A stretch of 52,753 bases of DNA from a virus, in IMG/VR virus record IMGVR_UViG_3300033153_007861, positions 1-52,753 of that record; one strand, 5' to 3'. The position numbers were made by a program, and so were the translations under genes. The stretch's first letter is position 1. Every line of letters begins with the position of its first letter. Below are positions 1,970 through 52,753 of the stretch, piece by piece. The notes beneath the pieces were generated by a model. That model saw nothing but the letters and a program-made list of their open reading frames with translations, did not search any database and was not told the DNA's origin.

Positions 1970-4480
1970 CTATAATAAAGTTCCAATTCCATTATTATAA
2001 ACATTACTTCTCTCATTTGAATCTAAATTATAATTAAAAACTCTAAAGTCTTCCAGATATAATCCTGTAGTTCCATCGGAATATATATTAAAAAACTGAC
2101 TTGTATTATCACCTTTAATGTTAAGTCGCCCTATTTGTGAATCAACAACAGTATTGTCCACATATAGCCTTATAAATTCCTGTGTACTATCTATTGATAA
2201 GATTATATGTTTCCATGACCCCATAGGTGTAGCATGTATTACATTTGTAGTTGTATTACTATTAGAAATCTCACAATTCAATTCATTGCCTTTAAACTGT
2301 ATTGCCATATAGTCTAGTGAACTTGTTTTAAATAAAATGTTAATTTTAGTAGTACTAAGTGCAGAATAATAGTTCATCCAAAAAGCAACAGTAATATTGT
2401 TAGAATTTATACTAAATTGTTCAGAAGCTATTAATGACGATGAACTTCCGTATGGCAGATAATAACTATTTCTTATCTTACCAGTTTGATTAATAGTAGT
2501 GCCTGTGTTTGTTAAGTTTTGCTTCTCTGTGCCAAAATTATTAACAACTACTCCTGTCTCCTCTTGTAATTTGTAGTGTAAAATAGGTATGTTTTGAGTT
2601 ATATACTCTTGATATGATTCAAGCTCAATAACTTCTTTGTGTTTAGTCATTTTAGTGATTATACCATAACTAACACCATCTTTAATTAAATTATTGCCTA
2701 TTCTAATATCTTGATTCTTATTCTTGATTTTAACTTTGTAATATATCACATTATTAAATTTATCGTAATACCGTTGCAAAACATAATCGTTTAATAAAAA
2801 ATAATTATCAGGACTTAATAAATTCAACTTGTAATCCTTATTATCAAGCTCCCTTAGATTTAAAGTTATATCCGAAACATCCACATTGCCCAATCCTGCA
2901 TTAGTGATAATATTAATATCTGAATTGAAGAAATTAGATTTTAAACCACTTTGCTTCAGTATATCTGATAAGTAATTGAATATGTTGTAATTCTCCTCAG
3001 TATTATATAATAGATTATCAGAATATGACGAAGACTCCCACCTAGAAGTATATAAATCAGCAGGAACAAGCCCTATAACATCCACGATTATTATTCCTGT
3101 ATAATCAAATATTGTACCATTGCTAATATTTAACCTACCACCACTGTAATTTCTAGTACTAAGAAAGTAATTAGTATTAATATAATCAAATGAATATAAT
3201 CCAAGAGTTATCGTGTCTCCATAATCAGATTTTTGATAACTAGATGTAAAATCTAAAATATTCCACTTATAACCTAATGCTCCATGAATACCGCTTCTTT
3301 GTAATTCAAGCATTATTGTTTCAGTATTGGCACCTAAAAATGTACCAACTGGAATACAACAACCAATAAATTTGTTTCCACCCGAGCTAACTACTGAAAA
3401 ATGCGGGAATATGAATATTTGTTTAGGACTACCTATGACATCATGTATATCAACAGTTCCTACCATATCGTAAGCTCCAAATCCGTTAATTTGTATTAAA
3501 TGAACGAATCTATAGCGTTCTGATGGAGTTTCAGGATCAGTATAATCTCTCTCTGCAACAACTGCTATAGCACCTATATGCCTTTCATCTAAACTAGCTT
3601 GATTTAACGCATTACTAACTTGTGTCGATGTTGGAGAAACTGGCAATTCATCATAGGTATAAACCGTGTCAGCAATTTCATTATACAGGAAATTACTACT
3701 AATCACATCACAAACAACAAACCTATCATCCAATTGACCACTAAGGTTGTTCATGTTTAACCTACTTTGCAAGTCTATCTCTTGCCATTTACTATAACCT
3801 ATAGCTATATCTTTGTTTTGGATAGTAATATTATGCGGAAATCCTTTTGCTTCCAATAACTCATTAGCCCTATGTTCAATAAATGAAAGTACACTACGGC
3901 TATTTGCAGTAGATTGATTTTCCCTAGCTACCTCATTAACATACATACCATTATCACGCAACTTTATTTGACCATAATAAGTAAAATCCATGTTTTCATA
4001 ATCTACTGCGGTATTGAAGTATGTTTTTGCTTTATCTTTTTCAGGTTGTGACAAATTATCATATACATTGTCGGTCACATATTGATACTGATCATTACCT
4101 ACATCTTTAAACTTATAACCCATATTTAAATTTTTAGCAAAATAAAATATACTAACAAATGTTATTGTCATTGTTTTTGTTTTGTAATCGTATGATACTA
4201 AGTTGGAATTTTGCTCAACTGGTATATACATAGAAAAACTACTACTACTAATGAAATCTAAGTTAAGATCACACTGTATAAGCGTCTTGCGATTAACTAT
4301 AGCTGTTTTAATGTAATCCAATTCATCAGTATTAATCATAAAATTTAATGTTAAGTTATCTATTGTTCCGATAAACTTCACGGTATCATTACCAGTAGTG
4401 AATGATATATTATTATCCTTAACTTTATCAGTCAAATCATATTCTACACCATCTATATTTATTTTAATATAATTAGACAT
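1970..4480 (-). CDS. Large distal tail / tip protein with C-terminal LamG-like domain (836 aa)
   Basis: Follows the tape measure gene with an 8-bp overlap, the usual place for the tail tip or hub protein. The first ~620 residues are beta-rich with no clear motif. The last ~190 form a LamG / concanavalin-like jelly roll: 'LHYKLQEETG' opening, 'NITVAFWMNYYSA' core strand, 'WKHIILSIDSTQEFIRLYVDN' and a closing 'EDFRVFNYNLDSNE' strand. Such domains usually bind carbohydrate. The ATG at 4480 is preferred over the GTG just before it. Role in surface adhesion is inferred. Confidence 0.75.
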   Translation of the reverse strand: MSNYIKINIDGVEYDLTDKVKDNNISFTTGNDTVKFIGTIDNLTLNFMINTDELDYIKTAIVNRKTLIQCDLNLDFISSSSFSMYIPVEQNSNLVSYDYKTKTMTITFVSIFYFAKNLNMGYKFKDVGNDQYQYVTDNVYDNLSQPEKDKAKTYFNTAVDYENMDFTYYGQIKLRDNGMYVNEVARENQSTANSRSVLSFIEHRANELLEAKGFPHNITIQNKDIAIGYSKWQEIDLQSRLNMNNLSGQLDDRFVVCDVISSNFLYNEIADTVYTYDELPVSPTSTQVSNALNQASLDERHIGAIAVVAERDYTDPETPSERYRFVHLIQINGFGAYDMVGTVDIHDVIGSPKQIFIFPHFSVVSSGGNKFIGCCIPVGTFLGANTETIMLELQRSGIHGALGYKWNILDFTSSYQKSDYGDTITLGLYSFDYINTNYFLSTRNYSGGRLNISNGTIFDYTGIIIVDVIGLVPADLYTSRWESSSYSDNLLYNTEENYNIFNYLSDILKQSGLKSNFFNSDINIITNAGLGNVDVSDITLNLRELDNKDYKLNLLSPDNYFLLNDYVLQRYYDKFNNVIYYKVKIKNKNQDIRIGNNLIKDGVSYGIITKMTKHKEVIELESYQEYITQNIPILHYKLQEETGVVVNNFGTEKQNLTNTGTTINQTGKIRNSYYLPYGSSSSLIASEQFSINSNNITVAFWMNYYSALSTTKINILFKTSSLDYMAIQFKGNELNCEISNSNTTTNVIHATPMGSWKHIILSIDSTQEFIRLYVDNTVVDSQIGRLNIKGDNTSQFFNIYSDGTTGLYLEDFRVFNYNLDSNERSNVYNNGIGTLL

Positions 4481-7400
4481 CACTAAACTCCAATGTACTT
4501 AATTGTTGATTATATTTACTAGTAGATGGCTCTAAATTAATTGCCATTACATCAGTATTCATAGTCATTGTTCCGCCTATAACCACTGGTGATTTCTCTT
4601 TATTTACCGCAATCAATACTTTATTCATGACATTCACTAACTCGCCTGTTTGGAAAATATTAGGTTGAACATATCCACCATTAGCATAACTTGTTGTGTT
4701 TAAGTTTTTCGGGATTGTTATTGAACCTATTGATCCTGCTTGCATTAGATCTTTAAGTTTAGCACCTTTTTTTGTTAATTCAAGAAGCTTTAACCAATCT
4801 CCAACTTGCCCCTTAACACTTTCTTGGGGAGCTACTATTTCACCACTATGAACAATACCTGCTGGTTGATACTTGCCTCCATCACCAGTATATCCACCTA
4901 CTGCAAAACTTGGTTTAGTCGCCTGTATTTGAGCAACATTAGCCATTCCCTTAGCAACAACACTGGCCATTAATACATAATTTAAAGGTGGTACTGTAGA
5001 AGCAAGAGCTTTGTTTGCCGCTGAAAATGTACTTATAATAGCTTCGGCAGTAGAAAGAGCCTTCCAAATTCCAAATTGTTTTTTACCCATAGATTTAGCT
5101 ACATCTGCAAAATTACCTAATGCTGTGATAGAGGCATTAATAGCTTGATCTTCTAACTTTATAATAGCTATTCTATCATTAGCAGCTTTCTCTTTAATCG
5201 CCGTTAATGCAGATTCGTATTGTTCGCCTAGTAATAGTTTTTGCTCATTAGCTAACTCTATAGCATCTATCTCTCTTTGATCAATTTCCATCGTGGCTTC
5301 TATTCCAGCTAGTGTAGCAGGTACTCTCTCATCCACACCACCAATGCCAACTCTTTTTAGCAATATGTCTTTAGTTCTCAACTCTCGTATTTTAATATTT
5401 TCAATTTCTTCATCAGTATGCTTTTTTAACAAATTTAACTTAGCTTGATAATATTGCTGGTCATTGGCTAATTTTCTCTTATTTGCCTCAACCTCAGTAA
5501 TTTCCTCTCTGTCTGCAGCTTGACTAATAACTACTTGTGCATCAGCCTGATATTTTTTAAGCAAATTAAGATCATCTACATAACCTTTAGTTTTCTCTAT
5601 ATATTGCTTGACAATTAACTCTTTTGTTTTACCAAGTATTTCACCGATCAATAAAGCATTTGAATTTTTCTGTATCTTCATTTCTTCCTGAAGAGTTACT
5701 CTTCTTAATTGTGCTAATCTCGTTAAATTCTCTTGCTCTTTCTTTCGTGCATCTCTTAAATACTTATTACGAATACTACTTTTGAGTTGATTAGTTTTCG
5801 CTAATATCATTACATCAGTTTTACTATTATGTTTTAAATCTTCTTTCCAACTTGCTATAAACTTTTCAGCTTCCTTGAGTTCATTTTGCATTGCATTAGT
5901 ATCTAAAAACACGGACAATCTTTCTAATTCAGAAACCTTACCTGATGCTTGCGACAACTCCTTATTAAACTCTTTTGTGAATTCTAACATAGATCTAAAA
6001 CTATCACTTGATCGCTTAGAAACCAGTCCAAGCTCGTCCATTTGTGCATTAATAGATTTTTGTGCATTAACACCAGATCTTAATGATAAATTTATTTCAT
6101 CTTGTATTATTTTTTGTTGCTCAAGGTTTTTTTTATGATTAGTAAGTGCATATTGTATATTACCATGCTGCCGCATACTCATTTCTCCAGCAAGAAACAA
6201 TTCCTTCATTTGATTTCTCAAAGCATCTACATTTTCTATGTTTGTCAATTTAGACACATCTATGTCTGGAGTTTCGCCCTTAAAAATGTCAAATCTTCCT
6301 GTATCAAATGCTTTTTTTACATCAACAACTAATTTGCTAAAGGATTTTTCGTCTAACAATTTTAACTCAAACTCTTTACCTAATACAATTAATTCTTTAA
6401 GTTTTTGAACCTTCATGTCCAAACCAACCTGCTCGACCTTGTTAAGTTTTTCAGTATCAGTTATTAGTTCGTCAAGATTCATCATTCCAAATGCTTCAGG
6501 AGACAATTTTTTTAGTTTTTCAAATATATCCGTTATACCTTCTGTTTTAACTCCGCCACTTTGCTGTATGAGTTTTTTGAGAACAGAAGTATATATCTTA
6601 ATAGACTCAATATTCTTATCTATATCTTTAATTTCCAAATTTACTACTTTTTCTCGAACAACACTTCTCATTCTGTCAAGTATCTTGTTTAGAAGCTCAC
6701 TCTTTTCAATAACTTTACCTATTCCAGCAAACCAATCACTAGTGAAATTAACTATTTGTTTCATCTTACCTAATGTAGTTTCAAGTTCCGTAGCTGCTAA
6801 ATCACCTACTTGTCCTTCTACAATATCAAGAATCATCTCTTGAGCTTTCAATAATTCATTCATCTCTGCATATTGTTTAATCTGTTTAGTTTGCTCTTTC
6901 GTGAATGATACACCAGCTCTATTCATTGCACCTAGGTTTCGTACTGGATCCTGCAATACTTTCCCAAGTTGTTTAGATGAGTTTTGTAAGCCACCAAATA
7001 CTGCGTCTAAATCTAATGCTAGCTGATTAGCCCTAACAAATACCGTATCTAATCCTTTTTCTCTTGCAGATTCAGACATTTCATGCTTAAGTTCCATAAA
7101 GGTTAATAATATGTTTGTTGACTGCTTAAGTATCTCTTCATCAGCCATAATTGTATTATCTTGAAGTTTCTTTACCAATACAGCTATATCAGAGGCGTTT
7201 ATATTAGCATACCTACCTGTAGCCTTAATTAACTCTTGGGACTTCCTGAGTGCCACATTTTGTTCATTATATATACTTAATAATTTATATGCACCTGCTA
7301 TCATTGGCAAAAAAACAAATACCATTTCCATCAATGCCCTACGAACCATTCTTATGGCTTTAATTGCACCTTGTGTTGCATTTTGTACTTTTTTCCAAGC

Positions 7401-7619
7401 TGGAACTTGTTTGTTTATAGTATTAATCATATTATTTATTTCTTGTTCTATTTTTTTTGCATTAGCTACAGCTTTTTGAGCTGCCTCATTGCTTATTATA
7501 TCAGCCCTAGCAGTTTTCTCAATCTTCTTATTTAATTTATCTATCTTTTGAGTTAGTTTTTCTAATTTGTCTATTGCTTTTTTAGCGCTAATATCAACAC
7601 CAATTTTAATATCTGCCAT
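4473..7619 (-). CDS. Tape measure protein (1048 aa)
   Basis: The longest gene in the window; it sits right after the frameshifted tail chaperone and before the tip genes, the hallmark place of the tape measure. The N-terminus is lysine-rich coiled coil (repeated KxxxKLxxKIxKL). A hydrophobic segment follows near residues 95-115 (ALMEMVFVFLPMIAGAYKLL), then long helical heptads. The C-terminal part has Gly/Ala-rich hydrophobic stretches and a 'FAVGGYTGDGGKYQPAGIVHSGEIVAP' region seen in many tape measures. It sets tail length and is ejected at infection. Its length fits a tail of roughly 150 nm by the usual ratio, an estimate only. Confidence 0.92.
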   Translation of the reverse strand: MADIKIGVDISAKKAIDKLEKLTQKIDKLNKKIEKTARADIISNEAAQKAVANAKKIEQEINNMINTINKQVPAWKKVQNATQGAIKAIRMVRRALMEMVFVFLPMIAGAYKLLSIYNEQNVALRKSQELIKATGRYANINASDIAVLVKKLQDNTIMADEEILKQSTNILLTFMELKHEMSESAREKGLDTVFVRANQLALDLDAVFGGLQNSSKQLGKVLQDPVRNLGAMNRAGVSFTKEQTKQIKQYAEMNELLKAQEMILDIVEGQVGDLAATELETTLGKMKQIVNFTSDWFAGIGKVIEKSELLNKILDRMRSVVREKVVNLEIKDIDKNIESIKIYTSVLKKLIQQSGGVKTEGITDIFEKLKKLSPEAFGMMNLDELITDTEKLNKVEQVGLDMKVQKLKELIVLGKEFELKLLDEKSFSKLVVDVKKAFDTGRFDIFKGETPDIDVSKLTNIENVDALRNQMKELFLAGEMSMRQHGNIQYALTNHKKNLEQQKIIQDEINLSLRSGVNAQKSINAQMDELGLVSKRSSDSFRSMLEFTKEFNKELSQASGKVSELERLSVFLDTNAMQNELKEAEKFIASWKEDLKHNSKTDVMILAKTNQLKSSIRNKYLRDARKKEQENLTRLAQLRRVTLQEEMKIQKNSNALLIGEILGKTKELIVKQYIEKTKGYVDDLNLLKKYQADAQVVISQAADREEITEVEANKRKLANDQQYYQAKLNLLKKHTDEEIENIKIRELRTKDILLKRVGIGGVDERVPATLAGIEATMEIDQREIDAIELANEQKLLLGEQYESALTAIKEKAANDRIAIIKLEDQAINASITALGNFADVAKSMGKKQFGIWKALSTAEAIISTFSAANKALASTVPPLNYVLMASVVAKGMANVAQIQATKPSFAVGGYTGDGGKYQPAGIVHSGEIVAPQESVKGQVGDWLKLLELTKKGAKLKDLMQAGSIGSITIPKNLNTTSYANGGYVQPNIFQTGELVNVMNKVLIAVNKEKSPVVIGGTMTMNTDVMAINLEPSTSKYNQQLSTLEFSDV

Positions 7620-7633
7620 ACAACCCCCTTTTG

Positions 7634-7966
7634 TTAATTATTTAACACATTATTACAATCTCTATATATAGATAATCTAAAAGCCTCCATAAAATCCATT
7701 TCAAGCAAAGCATTATAGTGTAAAGGGTTGCCATTACTCCACATAATTAAACTATTATCAATAAAACTTTTTAAATTATCAATATTGAACTTTAATTCCG
7801 TACCAAGAAGACTACTGATACTATCCCTTGCATCACTCTTGATACGGTTTATTTTTTGTGTCAACTTATCATTAGATCCTAATTGTTTGTACTGCCGTCC
7901 AATCCGCTCAGTAATTCCGTTAAGACTGTTCCGTATTTTGGATATTTCGATAATGTCTTCTTGTAT
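7634..7966 (-). CDS. Tail assembly chaperone, C-terminal extension made by -1 frameshift
   Basis: This frame is open from the A10 run at 7966-7975 to its stop at 7634 (110 codons) and lies in the -1 frame of the upstream gene. It has no well-placed start of its own: the only early candidate is a TTG at 7864 without a ribosome site. Read after a -1 slip it continues the upstream protein (83 residues + 110 = 193) with a helical, charged sequence. This is the G/GT arrangement known from lambda and most siphophages, where the longer form helps load the tape measure. Confidence 0.8.
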   Translation of the reverse strand: MQEDIIEISKIRNSLNGITERIGRQYKQLGSNDKLTQKINRIKSDARDSISSLLGTELKFNIDNLKSFIDNSLIMWSNGNPLHYNALLEMDFMEAFRLSIYRDCNNVLNN

Positions 7967-8214
7967 TTTTTTTTTAATTCCTCTATCAATTCCAAGATCT
8001 TACCAAAATCACCATCAGAACCTTCTTTATTATCAATGTCACTTGCCGTCACAGCATTTTTATTTCTATCAGTTAATATTAACGCAAGTAATTCACTCTC
8101 ATTCTTACAAACCCCATTATCGTCCCATAAACCAGCAAGTATTCTAAGCTCTTTGAATTTCAAGGATGATTTTACTAAAAAAGGTTCTCCGAATAATGTA
8201 ATATCATTTTTCAT
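7879..8214 (-). CDS. Tail assembly chaperone, short form (111 aa)
   Basis: Lies between the tail-tube genes and the tape measure, the fixed place of the short tail chaperone. The N-terminus is beta-like ('ITLFGEPFLVKSSLKFKELRILAG'), followed by acidic helices. Codons 80-83 (Leu-Lys-Lys-Lys) are read from TTA AAA AAA AAA, a run of ten A that forms the slip site. Translation in frame 0 goes on for 28 more residues to a TAG at 7879. The short product is expected to be made in excess over the frameshifted product. Confidence 0.8.
   Translation of the reverse strand: MKNDITLFGEPFLVKSSLKFKELRILAGLWDDNGVCKNESELLALILTDRNKNAVTASDIDNKEGSDGDFGKILELIEELKKKYKKTLSKYPKYGTVLTELLSGLDGSTNN
7966..7975 (-). promoter_or_regulatory. 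Programmed -1 frameshift slip site (A10)
   Basis: Ten consecutive A on the coding strand inside TTA AAA AAA AAA TAC. A -1 slip changes the reading to ATA CAA GAA and joins the short chaperone to the 110-codon downstream frame. No strong downstream pseudoknot was seen by eye. An A-run this long also risks slippage during transcription. Confidence 0.75.
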
Positions 8215-8226
8215 AATTATATTCCT

Positions 8227-8904
8227 TTATCTATTATTTATAATACCGCCGTTTGTTTGTATTAAAGCTATATCAGATTCTGATAACATTCTATTTTTAT
8301 AATATCCAAATTCCTGTACTTTCATATTATAAGCACCAAGCAATTCGTACCCACCTAACGAAATATGACCATCAAACGAACTTAAATCTGTACCACCAAC
8401 ATCAGTAGTTTGTTTCACGCCATCTATCCAAACTTCCAATATCGATGAATCCCAACGACATATAACTATATACCACTCCCCAACATTCATAGGATTTGTG
8501 TAAGTATATTCTCGTTGAGGATATACAGAACTACGAAAAATAACCGCTGCATTAGAAATGCCAATCAAGCTACTTGGTACTTCGGCTTCTAACCTAGATA
8601 TAAAAAGTTGTGCATCTACATCATCCCTTTTTACAACTAAAACAAATGATCCCTCATTTATTGTTTCTGTAACAACATCTGCTAATATTGTATTATTACC
8701 ACTAGACAATTGATAAGCTCTATTATTATTGCCTTTATTATCAGGAATTAACACAGGATTTGTTCCTGCATCCCCAAAACTACCATCATTACCGTTCCCA
8801 CTTTCATCATAAACGACCGTATCGCTTGTTTCAGTGAATGCAAACAGTTGATACAGTCCATCTTGAAGTTGTGTTGGAATAGGGTCAATTGTCCCCGCAG
8901 TAAC
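8227..8904 (-). CDS. LamG-like domain joined to the tail-tube protein through an in-frame UGA (readthrough extension)
   Basis: From the codon after the TGA at 8905-8907 the same frame stays open for 225 codons. It starts with a short linker, then a LamG-type opening ('YDESGNGNDGSFG') and continues as a jelly-roll domain (WYIVICRWDSSILEVWIDG, FGYYKNRMLSESD). It has no ribosome site; the first usable start is a GTG at 8754 that would cut off the first strand of the domain. So it is best read as a C-terminal extension of the upstream tail-tube protein (417 residues in all) made by UGA readthrough. A sequencing error or a recent nonsense mutation are the alternatives. Confidence 0.7.
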   Translation of the reverse strand, partial: VTAGTIDPIPTQLQDGLYQLFAFTETSDTVVYDESGNGNDGSFGDAGTNPVLIPDNKGNNNRAYQLSSGNNTILADVVTETINEGSFVLVVKRDDVDAQLFISRLEAEVPSSLIGISNAAVIFRSSVYPQREYTYTNPMNVGEWYIVICRWDSSILEVWIDGVKQTTDVGGTDLSSFDGHISLGGYELLGAYNMKVQEFGYYKNRMLSESDIALIQTNGGIINNR

Positions 8905-9480
8905 TCAGGTCAAATCAATACGCTCGTAAGGATTCGATTTACCCGGCACTTTACGACCAGTGATTGTTAGATCTTCTGCCATAAGTAGAACCTTACCACC
9001 TATGTTAGATGTATAACCACCCATATCACCTTTATACATGAAGTATAAATCAGAAGGATCACTCTCGTTACTATCCTCGTACCTAATCATAATGTAAGGA
9101 AAGTTTTCTTCCGCCATTACTTCTAAAGCCTTGCTTAACTTGCTTGTTTTCATTTCAATAAAGTTAATGCCACTAAAAGTAGACGACTTGGTCTTTATAG
9201 ATGCCACCACTTCACTAAATCCACTATATTTAGGTTCTTTGTCAACATTATATCCAAATTGAAATGGATTCTCATCTGTATTACCTAGACAAGAATACGA
9301 ATCACTTGGTAAGACGAATTGTTTCGTGGTTGTATTATAATAATCAGCTATATCATAACTTGGTACACCAGCATTATATACTTGTTCACAAACATATACA
9401 ATACCAGCACCTTTTGTTGTACTTGTGGCAGTGATGTCCCTAGTATTATTTAGAGCTGCTACTTCCGCAGGTAATGCCAT
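8905..9480 (-). CDS. Tail tube protein 2, short form (191 aa)
   Basis: Similar to the C-terminal half of the neighbour at 9501-10787: shared 'KGAG[IL][VI]YV', 'C[LF]GN', 'GF/INFIE', and 'TSN[IV]GxKVLL...[IL]TI.G.K.P'. Both precede the tail chaperone, so both are taken as tail-tube (major tail) proteins produced by duplication. The ATG at 9480 has an AAAGAGAGG-type site. The frame ends at TGA and continues open for 225 codons beyond it, coding a LamG-like domain. Confidence 0.75.
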   Translation of the reverse strand: MALPAEVAALNNTRDITATSTTKGAGIVYVCEQVYNAGVPSYDIADYYNTTTKQFVLPSDSYSCLGNTDENPFQFGYNVDKEPKYSGFSEVVASIKTKSSTFSGINFIEMKTSKLSKALEVMAEENFPYIMIRYEDSNESDPSDLYFMYKGDMGGYTSNIGGKVLLMAEDLTITGRKVPGKSNPYERIDLT

Positions 9481-13934: not shown

Positions 13935-14009
13935 TGGTTGAGGTATCAGGATTCGAACCTGAAAATACTGGAATCAAAGTCCAGTGCCTTGCCGTTTGGC
14001 GATACCTCA
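13935..14009 (-). tRNA. tRNA-Gln (anticodon TTG)
   Basis: 75 nt. Acceptor stem TGAGGTA/TACCTCA, discriminator A and encoded CCA; anticodon arm CTGGA-CTTTGAT-TCCAG gives TTG; T-arm with GGTTCGAATCC. The fold is complete, so the gene should be functional. It reads CAA, a preferred Gln codon in this AT-rich genome. Confidence 0.95.
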
Positions 14010-14023
14010 ATTTATATATAAAA

Positions 14024-14100
14024 TGGAGACGATACCCAGAATCGAACTGGGAAAAATAGATTTTGCAGATCCACGCCTTTACCAATTTAGCCATATCGCC
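14024..14100 (-). tRNA. tRNA-Cys (anticodon GCA)
   Basis: 77 nt including encoded CCA. Acceptor GGCGATA pairs with TATCGTC (one G-T), discriminator T as usual for Cys. Anticodon loop CTGCAAA gives GCA. T-arm GTTCGATTC is present. Lies 14 bp from the Gln gene. Confidence 0.95.
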
Positions 14101-14111
14101 GTATATAAAAA

Positions 14112-14197
14112 TGGCGGAGAGTATAGGACTCGAACCTATAAGAGTGATTAGCTCGGTAGTTTTCAAGACTACTGACTTACCATTAGCCTAACTCTCC
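14112..14197 (-). tRNA. tRNA-Ser (anticodon TGA)
   Basis: 86 nt with a long variable arm typical of class II tRNAs. Acceptor GGAGAGT pairs with ACTCTCC, discriminator G, encoded CCA. Anticodon loop CTTGAAA gives TGA, reading TCA/TCN. First of three tandem tRNAs. Confidence 0.95.
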
Positions 14198-36928: not shown

Positions 36929-37633
36929 TTATTTAATATCAAGAGCGTAAGCCTCGAACCACACTTCCTTATGATAAGAATTTACTGCTCCGTAATTTAC
37001 ATCAGGTACCTTTATTGACAACTCGTAATCTACCTCACTTTGCATATCCCTAACAACCTTAGTAAGTTGTCTCCAATCAAACTTCATTCCATGATATATA
37101 ATCTGCATCTTTTTTACAGTAGCATAATCAAGTGATTTGTCAAGTTCAACCTTAAGCTTCTTGTTTTCTTTAGAGAATTTACTTGCTGTCGCCATCGATG
37201 TAGCTTCTCTCCTACTTCCAATTTCTGCCTTAGTCCTCACTGCTTCATTTCTTTCAAGTAATGCCTGCTCTTTCTTTTCAACTTCATCAGCATAGAGCCT
37301 TAGTGCTTCAGGTAATGATTGTGGTAAACTTGCTTTCAGTTTCTTCTCGCATTCAATGAAATACTTTCTCGCTTGTTTACCTTTATTATTTCTTGCGAGC
37401 ATAGATAATTCTTTAGCCATATCTAAAGAAAGTTGGTATTCTTTTGTCTTCCCACCACTTACTAAATTTTTAGTAAACGATTTATAGTCTTGATTTTCAA
37501 TAAAATCAAAGTCTTTAATTGAGTTATTAATCCAATCGTTAAACCTACTTTTAATTTCCAAAAACAAATACAATTCTCTGCCGTCAACTCTTCTTTCATT
37601 CTCAACCACTTCAATCTTAATTAATTCATTCAT
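36929..37633 (-). CDS. AntA-type antirepressor (234 aa)
   Basis: N-terminal AntA/AntB domain: 'IKIEVVENERRVDGRELYLFLEIKSRFNDWI' then 'EYQLSLDMAKELSMLARNNKGKQARKYFIECEKKL'. The middle is coiled coil, and the C-terminus ends 'YHKEVWFEAYALDIK', a KilAC-like DNA-binding part. ATG at 37633 after AGGTG; an upstream in-frame ATG precedes the site. One of three paralogs in this window. It would counter a repressor, perhaps the XRE protein at 40.1 kb. Confidence 0.85.
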   Translation of the reverse strand: MNELIKIEVVENERRVDGRELYLFLEIKSRFNDWINNSIKDFDFIENQDYKSFTKNLVSGGKTKEYQLSLDMAKELSMLARNNKGKQARKYFIECEKKLKASLPQSLPEALRLYADEVEKKEQALLERNEAVRTKAEIGSRREATSMATASKFSKENKKLKVELDKSLDYATVKKMQIIYHGMKFDWRQLTKVVRDMQSEVDYELSIKVPDVNYGAVNSYHKEVWFEAYALDIK

Positions 37634-37634
37634 C

Positions 37635-37706
37635 TTAAACACACCTTTCATAAGTTAATTGCATAATGCCATCTTTATTTTCAATACCTAAATTCATTAA
37701 TTCCAT
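37635..37706 (-). pseudogene. Remnant of a Rha N-terminus (23 codons)
   Basis: AAGGAGTTTAAA-ATG opens 'MELMNLGIENKDGIMQLTYERCV' and stops one base before the AntA start. The first 13 residues are identical to the Rha-like fragment at 48752. It is the stub of a Rha gene fused to the front of AntA by deletion; it may still work as a coupled leader. Confidence 0.7.
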
Positions 37707-44372: not shown

Positions 44373-44388
44373 AACTCCTCCTATATAC

Positions 44389-45180
44389 TTAATATTCACT
44401 TATTTTTTGATATCCACCTATTTCTTGTGATCCACTTATTTTTTGATATCCACCTATTTTTTGATATCCACCTATTTCTTGCCATTCACTTATTTTTTGA
44501 TATCCACCTATTTTTTGATATCCACCTATTTCTTGATATCCACCTATTTCTTGATATCCACCTATTTTTTGATATCCACTTATTTCTTGATATCCACCTA
44601 TTTTTTGATATCCACCTATTTCTTGATATCCACTTATTTCTTGATATTCACTTATTTCTTGATATTCACCTATTTCTTGCCATTCACCTATTTCTTGTGA
44701 CCCACTTATTTCTTGATATTCACTTATTTTTTGATATCCACCTATTTCTTGTGATCCAATAACTATTTGATATTCACCTACTATTTGATATCCACCTATT
44801 TCTTGTGATCCACCTACTATTTGGTATTCACATACTTCTTGCCATCCACCTATTTCTTGTGATCCAATAACTATTTGATATCCACCTACTATTTGATATC
44901 CACCTATTTCTTGTGATCCACCTACTATTTGGTATTCACCTATTTCTTGCCATCCACCTATTTCTTGATATTCACTTATTTTTTGATATTCACCTATTTC
45001 TTGCCATCCACCTATTTCTTGATATCCACCTACTATTTGGTATTCACCTATTTTTTGATATCCACCTATTTCTTGTGATCCACTTATTTCTTGATATCCA
45101 CCTATTTCTTGTGATCCAATAACATAATCAAAATATTTAGTAGTATATGATCCTGAAACATAATCCTTTATATTTTTCAT
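44389..45180 (-). CDS. Hexapeptide-repeat protein, copy 1 (263 aa)
   Basis: After a short N-terminus (YVSGSYTTKYFDYVIGSQEIGG) the whole protein is a run of about 40 six-residue units [GES][YSW]Q[EKI][IV][GS]. Ile/Val every six residues points to a beta-solenoid. It lacks the C-terminal domain of copy 2. The strong AGGAGGAG-ATG start 14 codons upstream in copy 2 is out of frame here because of a 14-bp deletion, so translation must start at an internal ATG (45180) without a good site. Role unknown. Confidence 0.75.
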   Translation of the reverse strand: MKNIKDYVSGSYTTKYFDYVIGSQEIGGYQEISGSQEIGGYQKIGEYQIVGGYQEIGGWQEIGEYQKISEYQEIGGWQEIGEYQIVGGSQEIGGYQIVGGYQIVIGSQEIGGWQEVCEYQIVGGSQEIGGYQIVGEYQIVIGSQEIGGYQKISEYQEISGSQEIGEWQEIGEYQEISEYQEISGYQEIGGYQKIGGYQEISGYQKIGGYQEIGGYQEIGGYQKIGGYQKISEWQEIGGYQKIGGYQKISGSQEIGGYQKISEY

Positions 45181-46065
45181 CTATAACTACTTTCATAACT
45201 CCTCCTATATACTTAATATCCATTTTTTATTATCATTCCAAAATTTTAAACCTTTTTTACCATCCATGTCTATTATTTCTTTATCTGTAAATAATTTCCA
45301 TTCTTTTTTTGTATATAATTTACATCCTATTTTTATATGATTATCTAATATGTAAATTACATAAATATTACCAGTTATTCTTTTTATACTTTTTGTACTG
45401 CATTTCATTATACTAATTATTTCACTTACTATTTGTGACCCACCTACTATTTGATATTCACCTATTTCTTGCCATTCACCTATTTCTTGTGACCCACTTA
45501 TTTCTTGATATTCACTTATTTTTTGATATCCACTTACTATTTGATATTCACCTACTATTTGGTATTCACCTATTTTTTGTGATCCAATAATTTCTTGATA
45601 TCCACTTATTTTTTGTGATCCAATAATTTTTTGATATCCACCTATTTCTTGTGATCCAATAACTATTTGATATTCACTTACTATTTGTGACCCACCTATT
45701 TCTTGTGATTCACCTATTTCTTGATATCCACCTATTTCTTGCCATCCACCTATTTCTTGATATTCATTTATTTTTTGATATTCACCTATTTCTTGTGATC
45801 CACTTATTTCTTGATATCCACCTATTTCTTGTGATCCAATAACTATTTGATATTCACTTACTATTTGTGACCCACCTATTTCTTGTGATTCACCTATTTC
45901 TTGATATCCACCTATTTCTTGTGATTCACCTATTTCTTGTGATCCACTTATTTTTTGATATCCACCTATTTCTTGTGATCCACTTATTTTTTGATATCCA
46001 CCTATTTCTTGTGATCCACTTATTTCTTGATATCCACCTATTTCTTGTGATCCAATAACATAATC
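44400..46065 (-). repeat. 18-bp tandem repeat DNA of the twin repeat genes
   Basis: On the plus strand the unit reads about GATATCCACCTATTTCTT, varied at a few fixed positions, at 44400-45120 and 45430-46060. The repeats are coding (six-residue units) and are prone to slippage, deletion and duplication. Confidence 0.9.
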
Positions 46066-46859: not shown

Positions 46860-47431
46860 TTAATTTATTTCTAATTGGTATGTTTCGAGCCATACTTCCT
46901 TGTGATATGTGTTTACCTTCCCATAATTAGCATCAAACACCTTATCCATTAATTCAAAATCAAACTCATCCTGCATTTGACGAGCAGTATCCTTAAGTAG
47001 TCTCCAATTGAATTTAATGCCGTGATATTGCAATTGCATTCTCTTTATGCTTGCATAGTCCTTAGATTTATCAAGCTCTATTTTAAGCTTTTTAACTTCT
47101 TTAGATTTTTGTGAAGCTGTGTTCATTGCAGTAGCTGTTTTCTTATCACTTATATAAGATTTGGTTCTAACCGCCTCATCTCTTTGAGTGATAGCTAATT
47201 CTTTTTCCTGCTCTCTAACTATTAATGCTTGCAATGCTTCAATATAAGTTGTTGGTAAATTAGCCTTCAATTTCTTTTCACACTCAATAAAATAATTTCG
47301 TGCTTCCTCACCTTTTTCAGTTCGTGCCATCATAGATAATTTTTTAGCAAAGTCTATTGATAGCTGAAAATCCATAGTCTCATTGCCGTTCGTCTTAATG
47401 ACGAACCCCCTATAATCTTAATTAATTCCAT
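46860..47431 (-). pseudogene. Broken AntA antirepressor, N-terminal part deleted
   Basis: AAGGAGTTTAAA-ATG at 47431 begins 'MELIKI' exactly like the intact AntA genes, then jumps to sequence that in another frame reads 'DYRGFVIKTNGNETMDFQLSIDFAKKLSMMAR', the middle of the AntA domain. About 40 codons are missing and the frame is lost. The remainder (ATG 47375 onward, 171 residues) still holds half of AntA, the coiled coil and the 'YHKEVWLETYQLEIN' end, but its only start has no ribosome site. Confidence 0.8.
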
Positions 47432-48962: not shown

Positions 48963-49670
48963 ATGGAATTAATCAAGATTGAAGTAGTAGAAAATGAAAG
49001 AAGAGTTGATGGTAGAGAGTTATGGAGATTTTTAGAAATTAAAACCGAGTTTGCGAAATGGGTTGATAGATATATTAAAGACTTTGACTTTATTGATGGA
49101 CAGGACTTTTCGTCATTTTTGGACAAAAGTAAAGGTGGTCGACCAAGTAAGGAATATCAATTATCTTTAGATATGGCAAAAGAATTATCTATGTTAGCAA
49201 GAAATGATAAAGGTAAAGAAGCAAGAAAGTATTTTATTGAGTGTGAAAAGAAATTGAAACAAGCACCACAACAACAAGCACCACAAACAAGATTAGAGTG
49301 GATAAAACTAGCATTACAACAAGAAGAAGAAAAACAACAATTACAAATTGAAAAAGATTATGCTGTTAGAACTAAAGCCGAAATTGGCTCGAGACGGGAA
49401 GCAACATCTATGGCAACCGCAAGCAAATTTTCTAAAGAAAACAAGAAGCTTAAAAGTTATATTGGTGAGTGTGAAGATTATGCAACTATCTTAGCAGTTG
49501 AACGAATTTACAAGGATGGTGGTTTTAAGTGGAGAGAACTAAAGAAGTATTGTATAGCTAATGAACTTGAAGTCAAGGAAGCACCAGATAAGCGATTCGG
49601 CAAGGTGAAATCTTATCCTGCTAAAGCTTGGTTAGAACTGTATGGTGTAGAATTAAGCGAGATATTTTAA
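48963..49670 (+). CDS. AntA-type antirepressor, plus-strand copy (235 aa)
   Basis: 'MELIKIEVVENERRVDGRELWRFLEIKTEFAKWV' and 'EYQLSLDMAKELSMLARNDKGKEARKYF' give the AntA domain; then a Gln-rich linker ('APQQQAPQ'), coiled coil, and a KilAC-like C-terminus ('FKWRELKKYC...KSYPAKAWLELYGVEL'). GGGGTTTAAA-ATG leader. The stretch 'AVRTKAEIGSRREATSMATA' is identical to the copy at 36929, showing recent shared origin. Confidence 0.85.
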   Translation: MELIKIEVVENERRVDGRELWRFLEIKTEFAKWVDRYIKDFDFIDGQDFSSFLDKSKGGRPSKEYQLSLDMAKELSMLARNDKGKEARKYFIECEKKLKQAPQQQAPQTRLEWIKLALQQEEEKQQLQIEKDYAVRTKAEIGSRREATSMATASKFSKENKKLKSYIGECEDYATILAVERIYKDGGFKWRELKKYCIANELEVKEAPDKRFGKVKSYPAKAWLELYGVELSEIF

Positions 49671-51671: not shown

Positions 51672-51890
51672 TTACATAAAAATTAATGCTATTATAGTTG
51701 AGAATAATAAAATATCACCAAATACAATGATGTAATACAGTATTCTTAATTTCTTATTAAAAATAACCATATTCTCCTTAAAACACCTCCTATAAGCATT
51801 TCTGCTCACCTCATTGATAAGATGAGCAGAATAAAACCCTCCGAAGAGGATCATTATTATTATACTACTGATATTCCAGTTATTGTCCAA
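51672..51890 (-). CDS. Small membrane protein in the lysis module (72 aa or shorter)
   Basis: Two membrane spans ('IIIMILFGGFYSAHLI' and 'YIIVFGDILLFSTIIALIF'). The TTG at 51890 overlaps the fibre gene by 31 bp and has a poor site; an ATG at 51854 is an alternative with 60 residues. Possibly an antiholin or accessory holin, from position only. Confidence 0.55.
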   Translation of the reverse strand: MDNNWNISSIIIMILFGGFYSAHLINEVSRNAYRRCFKENMVIFNKKLRILYYIIVFGDILLFSTIIALIFM

Positions 51891-52753
51891 CCTCGTGCTT
51901 CAAGATTAGTCACTGCAGTATTGCTCGCAGTCGTTCTTGTCATTCCTGTAGCTATGAAATCTCCATTATCTTTAGTGCAGGCTTCATATGCTTCCAATGT
52001 AGCGTCCATATCAGTGCTACTCATAGCAGTGTTTGACAAAATACTGACAAAAGGAACATCATCTCCAGATACATTTACATAAGCTCCTGTTGCATTAACA
52101 CAATTAGTTAAATTTAAACTATTATTTAAATTAGATAAATCTGCCAAATCTCCTGTTATTAGTGAGCAATCAGTTAAGCTTAAATAACTTTTTAAATTAG
52201 GTAAATCTGCCAAATCTCCTGTTATTAGTGAGCATTTAGATAATCCTAAATGCTCAGTCAAATTGGGTAAATCTGATAAATCCCCTGTCATTTCAGTGCA
52301 ATCCATTAATCTGAGATAGTAATTTAAATATTTAAAATCTTTTAAATCACCACGATATAAAGTATTAGTGTCATTATCATTCAACTCAACACCTACACTA
52401 TTAATAAAATCACCTTCTAAAATTACCCTGCCTGCTCTTGTAAGTGTTTTAACAGGTCGTTCTGCTGTCGATGTAGTCCCATCAATGAAATACCATTTTC
52501 TATTAAGTACATTTGTAGCTGAAAAATCAAATACCCCTACTTTTGCGAATAAGGTTATTTGTTGTAAAACTGTATTATTAACCCATTCAGAACCATTATA
52601 AGTATGTTTGCTATGAGTAGTTAAATTATACACTTCGGCACCATCAGTCATTCCAGTTAAAGCATTCATTTCAGTGGTAGTTACTCGTGTTCCGTAACTA
52701 TATGAAGTAGTTGCGATAGTATCAGGAGTTATATCTAATAGTCCGTCAGGTGT
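51860..52753 (-). CDS. Tail fibre protein, C-terminal part with leucine-rich-like repeats (runs off the window)
   Basis: The frame is open from the window edge (28 codons before the first ATG at 52669). Early part 'TTEMNALTGMTDGAEVYNLTTHSKHTYNGSEW' is a common fibre motif. Residues about 140-240 hold three to four ~24-residue repeats ('LSLTDCSLITGDLADLPNLKS') like a leucine-rich solenoid. Then 'AYEACTKDNGDFIATGMTRTTASNTAVTNLEARGWTITG', a module common in phage and bacterial surface proteins. Likely receptor binding. Confidence 0.75.
   Translation of the reverse strand, partial: TPDGLLDITPDTIATTSYSYGTRVTTTEMNALTGMTDGAEVYNLTTHSKHTYNGSEWVNNTVLQQITLFAKVGVFDFSATNVLNRKWYFIDGTTSTAERPVKTLTRAGRVILEGDFINSVGVELNDNDTNTLYRGDLKDFKYLNYYLRLMDCTEMTGDLSDLPNLTEHLGLSKCSLITGDLADLPNLKSYLSLTDCSLITGDLADLSNLNNSLNLTNCVNATGAYVNVSGDDVPFVSILSNTAMSSTDMDATLEAYEACTKDNGDFIATGMTRTTASNTAVTNLEARGWTITGISVV

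Follow-up and report, generated by a model that had tools for sequence, protein, structure and literature searches.

Tail genes around the putative tube gene

The window, a 52,753-base virus record, belongs to a tailed phage with genes for a terminase, a Mu-like portal, MuF, a ClpP-like protease, a tape measure protein and a primase/helicase, and the minus strand carries its structural genes. The order of these genes is MCP, a tandem paralog, the putative tube gene, the G/GT-type chaperones and the tape measure, with the putative tube gene directly preceding the chaperones and the tape measure (Table 1). The putative tube gene is an open reading frame of 191 codons from 9480 to 8905, is preceded by the SD sequence AGAGAGG (-9.2 kcal/mol) and ends with the codons GAT TTG ACC TGA. 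Its product showed no match in Pfam, PHROG, NCBIfam or the PDB. The first-pass annotation had called it a tail-tube protein; gene order, the sole basis for this identity, agrees with that name, and we refer to a putative tube protein. The assignment by gene order is supported by the adjoining chaperone pair, whose frames run from 8214 to 7879 and then down to 7634, where a run of ten A permits a -1 shift. The A10 run and both chaperone parts are conserved in the relative described below. AlphaFold models reached a pLDDT of 30 for the read-through protein and 27 for the tandem paralog, too low for either model to be used.

Table 1. Features of the tail-gene region (positions in the window)
Feature	Position	Strand	Basis
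Tail tape measure protein	4473..7619	-	PHROG 1506 (E 7e-24) and others
G/GT-type tail chaperone pair, -1 frameshift at A10 run (starts 7975)	7634..8214	-	slippery run and frames
LamG-like domain (concanavalin A-like)	8227..8856	-	PF13385 and PF02210 matches; coding score
664-bp insert relative to contig L004	8241..8904	-	blastn breakpoints and junction read-out
16-codon linker VTAGTIDPIPTQLQDG	8857..8904	-	open, coding-like in frame 0, no ATG/GTG/TTG
UGA stop codon	8905..8907	-	same codon position as the relative's UAG
Putative major tail (tube) protein gene, 191 aa	8905..9480	-	ORF; SD AGAGAGG; relative; gene order
Tandem tube paralog, 428 aa, extra N-terminal domain of ~230 aa	9501..10787	-	BLASTP

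The tandem paralog matched the 191-aa protein in BLASTP with an E value of 4e-14 (31%). The additional N-terminal domain that the first-pass annotation had ascribed to it was indeed found, both in the window and in the relative, and the idea that this domain is another LamG received no support. Downstream of the tape measure gene, an 837-aa tail protein (1970-4483, minus strand) carries a C-terminal LamG domain that scores above the Pfam gathering score; its counterpart in the relative has 671 aa, is strongly diverged and has no LamG.

The ends of the record (1-1208 and 51860-52753) showed no terminal overlap, and no open reading frame seems to span the joined ends; the record therefore probably lacks part of a tail-fibre region that contains repeated motifs. 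At 44376-46047, an 18-bp unit is repeated ~93 times (70% matches), and this array encodes two open reading frames of 263 and 313 aa composed of hexapeptide repeats such as YQEIGG. Three similar open reading frames at 36929-37651, 46860-47375 and 48963-49670 share long common stretches by eye and form a paralogous family within the phage.

The in-frame extension beyond the UGA

Past the TGA, a further 225 codons of this frame are free of stops before a TAA at 8226-8224 closes it. The stop probability per codon was 0.082 in shuffled sequences of the same composition, which gives a probability of ~4e-9 for 225 open codons, and none of 20,000 shuffles kept the frame open over the length of the extension. 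The codon-usage score of the extension was 0.244 in frame 0, compared to a median of 0.219 for real genes, and was negative in all five other frames. Shuffles and coding score thus confirm the minus-strand reading of the first-pass annotation, a 191-codon frame ending in TGA and followed by 225 open codons. The annotation had further taken in-frame continuation as the mark of readthrough. However, one other gene in the window is followed by an even longer in-frame run, of 270 codons, which is simply the following gene, begun at an ATG of its own. The telling feature of the extension is therefore the missing start and not the same-frame continuation alone.

No ATG, GTG or TTG occurs in frame 0 within the first 50 codons past the TGA. 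The first candidate start, at codon 51, is a GTG at 8754 that lies inside the domain and has a weak SD pairing of -4.3 kcal/mol, as opposed to a median of -8.5 kcal/mol for the genes of the window, which generally have clear SD sites; the earlier view that the extension lacks a good start or ribosome site is borne out. Between the tube gene and the extension, no promoter-like site exceeded the shuffled expectation and no terminator was found. A frameshift into the LamG-like domain is impossible because the extension lies in frame 0, and a frame-joining site is lacking.

The RNA structure downstream of the UGA was not significant, with a z-score of -0.96 and 29 of 200 shuffles folding equally well, and no Rfam element was found at the site. 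No suppressor or UGA-decoding tRNA was found, the tRNAs of the phage being Gln, Cys (anticodon GCA) and Ser. Some known cases of readthrough need no stimulatory RNA structure.

The extension opens with a short linker whose codon score of 0.314 was reached by 0.5% of 424 out-of-frame open windows, versus 45% of in-frame windows. Because this linker is coding-like in frame 0, linker and complete domain together fit a piece that was excised from a larger protein and set in frame. In the remainder of the extension, Pfam Laminin_G_3 (PF13385) matched residues 126-212, that is, only the C-terminal part, with an E value of 7e-4 and 20.1 bits against a gathering score of 27.6, and PF02210 matched with an E value of 0.009. 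Since the PF13385 match falls below the gathering score, we name the domain LamG-like. AlphaFold predicted strands in the LamG-like half, at a confidence near 50 or below. The well-formed LamG domain of the first-pass annotation is consequently backed by the PF13385 match in its C-terminal part, at a sub-threshold score, and the opening DESGNGNDGS, which had been placed right after the UGA, begins 33 codons past it. The sub-threshold LamG match suggests that the extension may bind carbohydrates or glycans. A duplication of the LamG that ends the 837-aa protein was considered as the source of the extension, and no significant similarity between the two was found.

A related contig without the extension

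We scanned viral contigs with the tube, LamG, capsid and terminase proteins, two alignments and two DNA patterns as queries. Among the viral contigs, genome contigs, and phage and plasmid records scanned, relatives of the tail and capsid genes were found only on contigs of IMG/VR metagenome 3300033155, and the site itself is covered by one 16-kb contig (L004; L002, L006, L008 and L015 are the same contig). The tube-end DNA pattern returned 40 further loci, none of which carried a tube or LamG homolog. MT835752, the best terminase match among named phages, has the terminase as its sole gene in common with the window. An apparent stop within the terminase reading of the relative resulted from an upstream start that had been mis-set by tblastn. 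The tRNA cassettes differ, with Gln, Cys and Ser in the window (13935-14197, minus strand) versus Asn and Asp in the relative (L004:1924-2200). A 5.8-kb contig from the same metagenome (IMGVR_UViG_3300033155_002075) was 99.97% identical to positions 15609-9840 of the window, with 0.035% of sites differing, and ends before the TGA; this is evidence that it and the window come from the same population.

The tube protein of the relative is likewise exactly 191 aa long and 94% identical, and the two genes differ in 49 codons synonymously and in 11 non-synonymously. In the relative the gene ends with ACA TAG TAA, followed directly by the chaperone gene with no LamG between them, as opposed to ACC TGA and the insert in the window. 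The blastn alignment between the two breaks at 8909 and picks up again at 8240. At single-base resolution, the left flank includes the stop codon and the right one restarts at the second stop, TAA, of the relative, and the 664 bp exactly separate what are its two tandem stops (TAG and TAA). The last residues of the LamG-like domain (about INNR) are read from the old spacer. The stop of the LamG-like domain was rejected as the ancestral stop because 664 is not a multiple of 3 and the old second TAA lies out of frame.

Because the relative stops at the same codon and the insert sits between its tandem stops, the TGA most likely represents the conserved stop of the tube gene rather than the product of faulty sequencing or of a recent nonsense mutation in a fusion. 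The extension was seen in one genome only, the relative covering the site without it, and it would represent a lineage-specific domain cassette, either gained in the window or lost in the relative. The first-pass annotation had looked to homologs for the same stop position and had counted absence of the extension from them against readthrough. The stop position is shared and the extension is absent; on these sequences, its absence would mark a lineage-specific gain or loss and would neither prove nor refute a function.

Routes of expression and comparison with known systems

Occasional readthrough of the UGA, giving minor tube-LamG subunits, is tentatively the best explanation for the locus. 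It is favoured because the extension is open throughout, coding-like from its first codons and start-less, with no promoter-like site above chance and no terminator before it, and it is plausibly the simplest route to translating a start-less in-frame domain. Most ribosomes would stop at the UGA and produce the ordinary 191-aa tube protein, while a small fraction would insert an amino acid there, probably from a near-cognate tRNA (Trp or Cys, for example), and go on in the same frame to a tube-LamG protein of 417 aa. These minor subunits would join the tail tube with the LamG facing outward, where it could help the virion to hold surface glycans. We infer all three of readthrough, virion incorporation and glycan binding of the extension. 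The readthrough put forward in the first-pass annotation gains from the start-less in-frame domain and from the stop shared with the relative, and is weakened by the folding result, the lack of a suppressor tRNA and the single extended genome.

The insert could instead be an unexpressed passenger, derived from the coding sequence of another protein and placed after the stop by illegitimate recombination too recently to have decayed. The missing insert in the relative, the chance of 1/3 for an accidental in-frame placement and the fact that no recoding signal was recognised are all in line with this. However, the fragment consists of a complete domain plus linker with a clean end at the domain end, it runs for 225 codons without a second stop or frame break, and late operons of phages are compact, which makes a passenger rather unlikely. 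Reinitiation near a stop is common in phage operons, and the LamG-like domain might be a separate small protein, coupled to tube translation and reinitiated after the UGA at a non-standard start. The best SD-like pairing of the region belongs to an AUU at 8889, 15 nt past the stop and behind GCGGGG, and its -5.7 kcal/mol is close to the -5.6 kcal/mol of the chaperone gene. AUU starts, however, are very rare, the spacing is poor (only 3 nt here, ~12 nt at the next one), and the linker already begins before the AUU and looks coding in frame 0; we consider such a protein unlikely.

If the true product were the full fusion, with the TGA arising from faulty sequencing or assembly or from a recent nonsense mutation, one substitution would connect both parts. 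The record is derived from a metagenome, and variation does exist in the population, as seen in the 5.8-kb contig (0.035% of sites, the TGA site itself lying outside that contig). Against this, the stop falls on exactly the codon of the tube stop in the relative. A total of 68 extension codons and 56 tube codons are one substitution away from a stop, and since a random stop could fall on any of these ~124 codons, a hit at this one would be a coincidence of ~1 in 100, which renders the full fusion improbable. A general reading of UGA as sense in this phage or its host is wholly improbable and excluded in practice, because UGA terminates other genes of the window in the usual way: it ends 9 of the 59 genes counted (the putative tube gene included), several of which overlap the next start, and none of the long structural and replication genes examined is interrupted when read with the standard code.

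In-frame readthrough of a coat-protein stop yields a minor extended virion protein in Q-beta (A1) and in poleroviruses and enamoviruses (CP-RTD). These differ from the present case in being RNA viruses without homology to it, and a comparable readthrough signal was not recognised here. In the literature searched, the coverage of which is incomplete, we found no tailed-phage tube gene that uses readthrough. Phages often equip a share of their tail or coat subunits with additional adhesive domains, in most cases by frameshift. In SPP1, plain and FN3-extended tube subunits (gp17.1 and gp17.1*) are made by frameshift at a ratio of 3:1, and the FN3 extension, which infection does not require, is proposed to contact cell-wall carbohydrate (PMC8718954). 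The proposal made here likewise has a fraction of tube subunits with an extra C-terminal outer domain, whereas in our phage the domain is LamG-like and would be reached in frame 0 across a UGA barrier. In lactococcal 936 phages, the major tail gene is followed by a presence/absence cassette, from which a +1 shift at CCC.UAG adds a carbohydrate-binding domain that has been shown in virions (PMC4759559). The cassette of MTP-TpeX (phage PhiC0139) lies directly past the major tail gene, as here, and in a rearrangement hotspot (PMC4759559). MTP-TpeX is a +1 frameshift product with virion and western evidence, whereas the LamG-like domain could be joined to the tube protein by readthrough alone and not by frameshift. 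In Listeria PSA/A118 and T3, too, recoding extends a minority of the copies of a major virion protein (PMC5009743), there by frameshift and with other domains. The tube proteins of lambda (gpV), T5 (pb6) and YSD1 carry C-terminal Ig-like domains on the tube exterior (PMC8718954); unlike the case here, the domain is present on every subunit, with no intervening stop codon. With an open start-less domain past the tube stop, but lacking a frameshift site, the locus is a putative member of the recoded tube extensions of the SPP1/936 kind.

It is possible, though far from assured, that in this tailed dsDNA phage readthrough of the tube-gene UGA displays a LamG on a minority of subunits, beside the chaperone -1 frameshift, and that the arrangement has been caught soon after capture of the domain. 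According to Atkins et al., mobile Ig-like domains settle either in frame or out of it, and the way the junction is decoded follows from where they landed (PMC5009743); this chance landing is the proposed origin of such extensions. The two close relatives, with the same stop codon and with or without the domain, may show the capture step itself. If readthrough is confirmed, a tailed dsDNA phage would add in-frame suppression of a stop to the known routes, and LamG would fill a role usually played by Ig-like domains.
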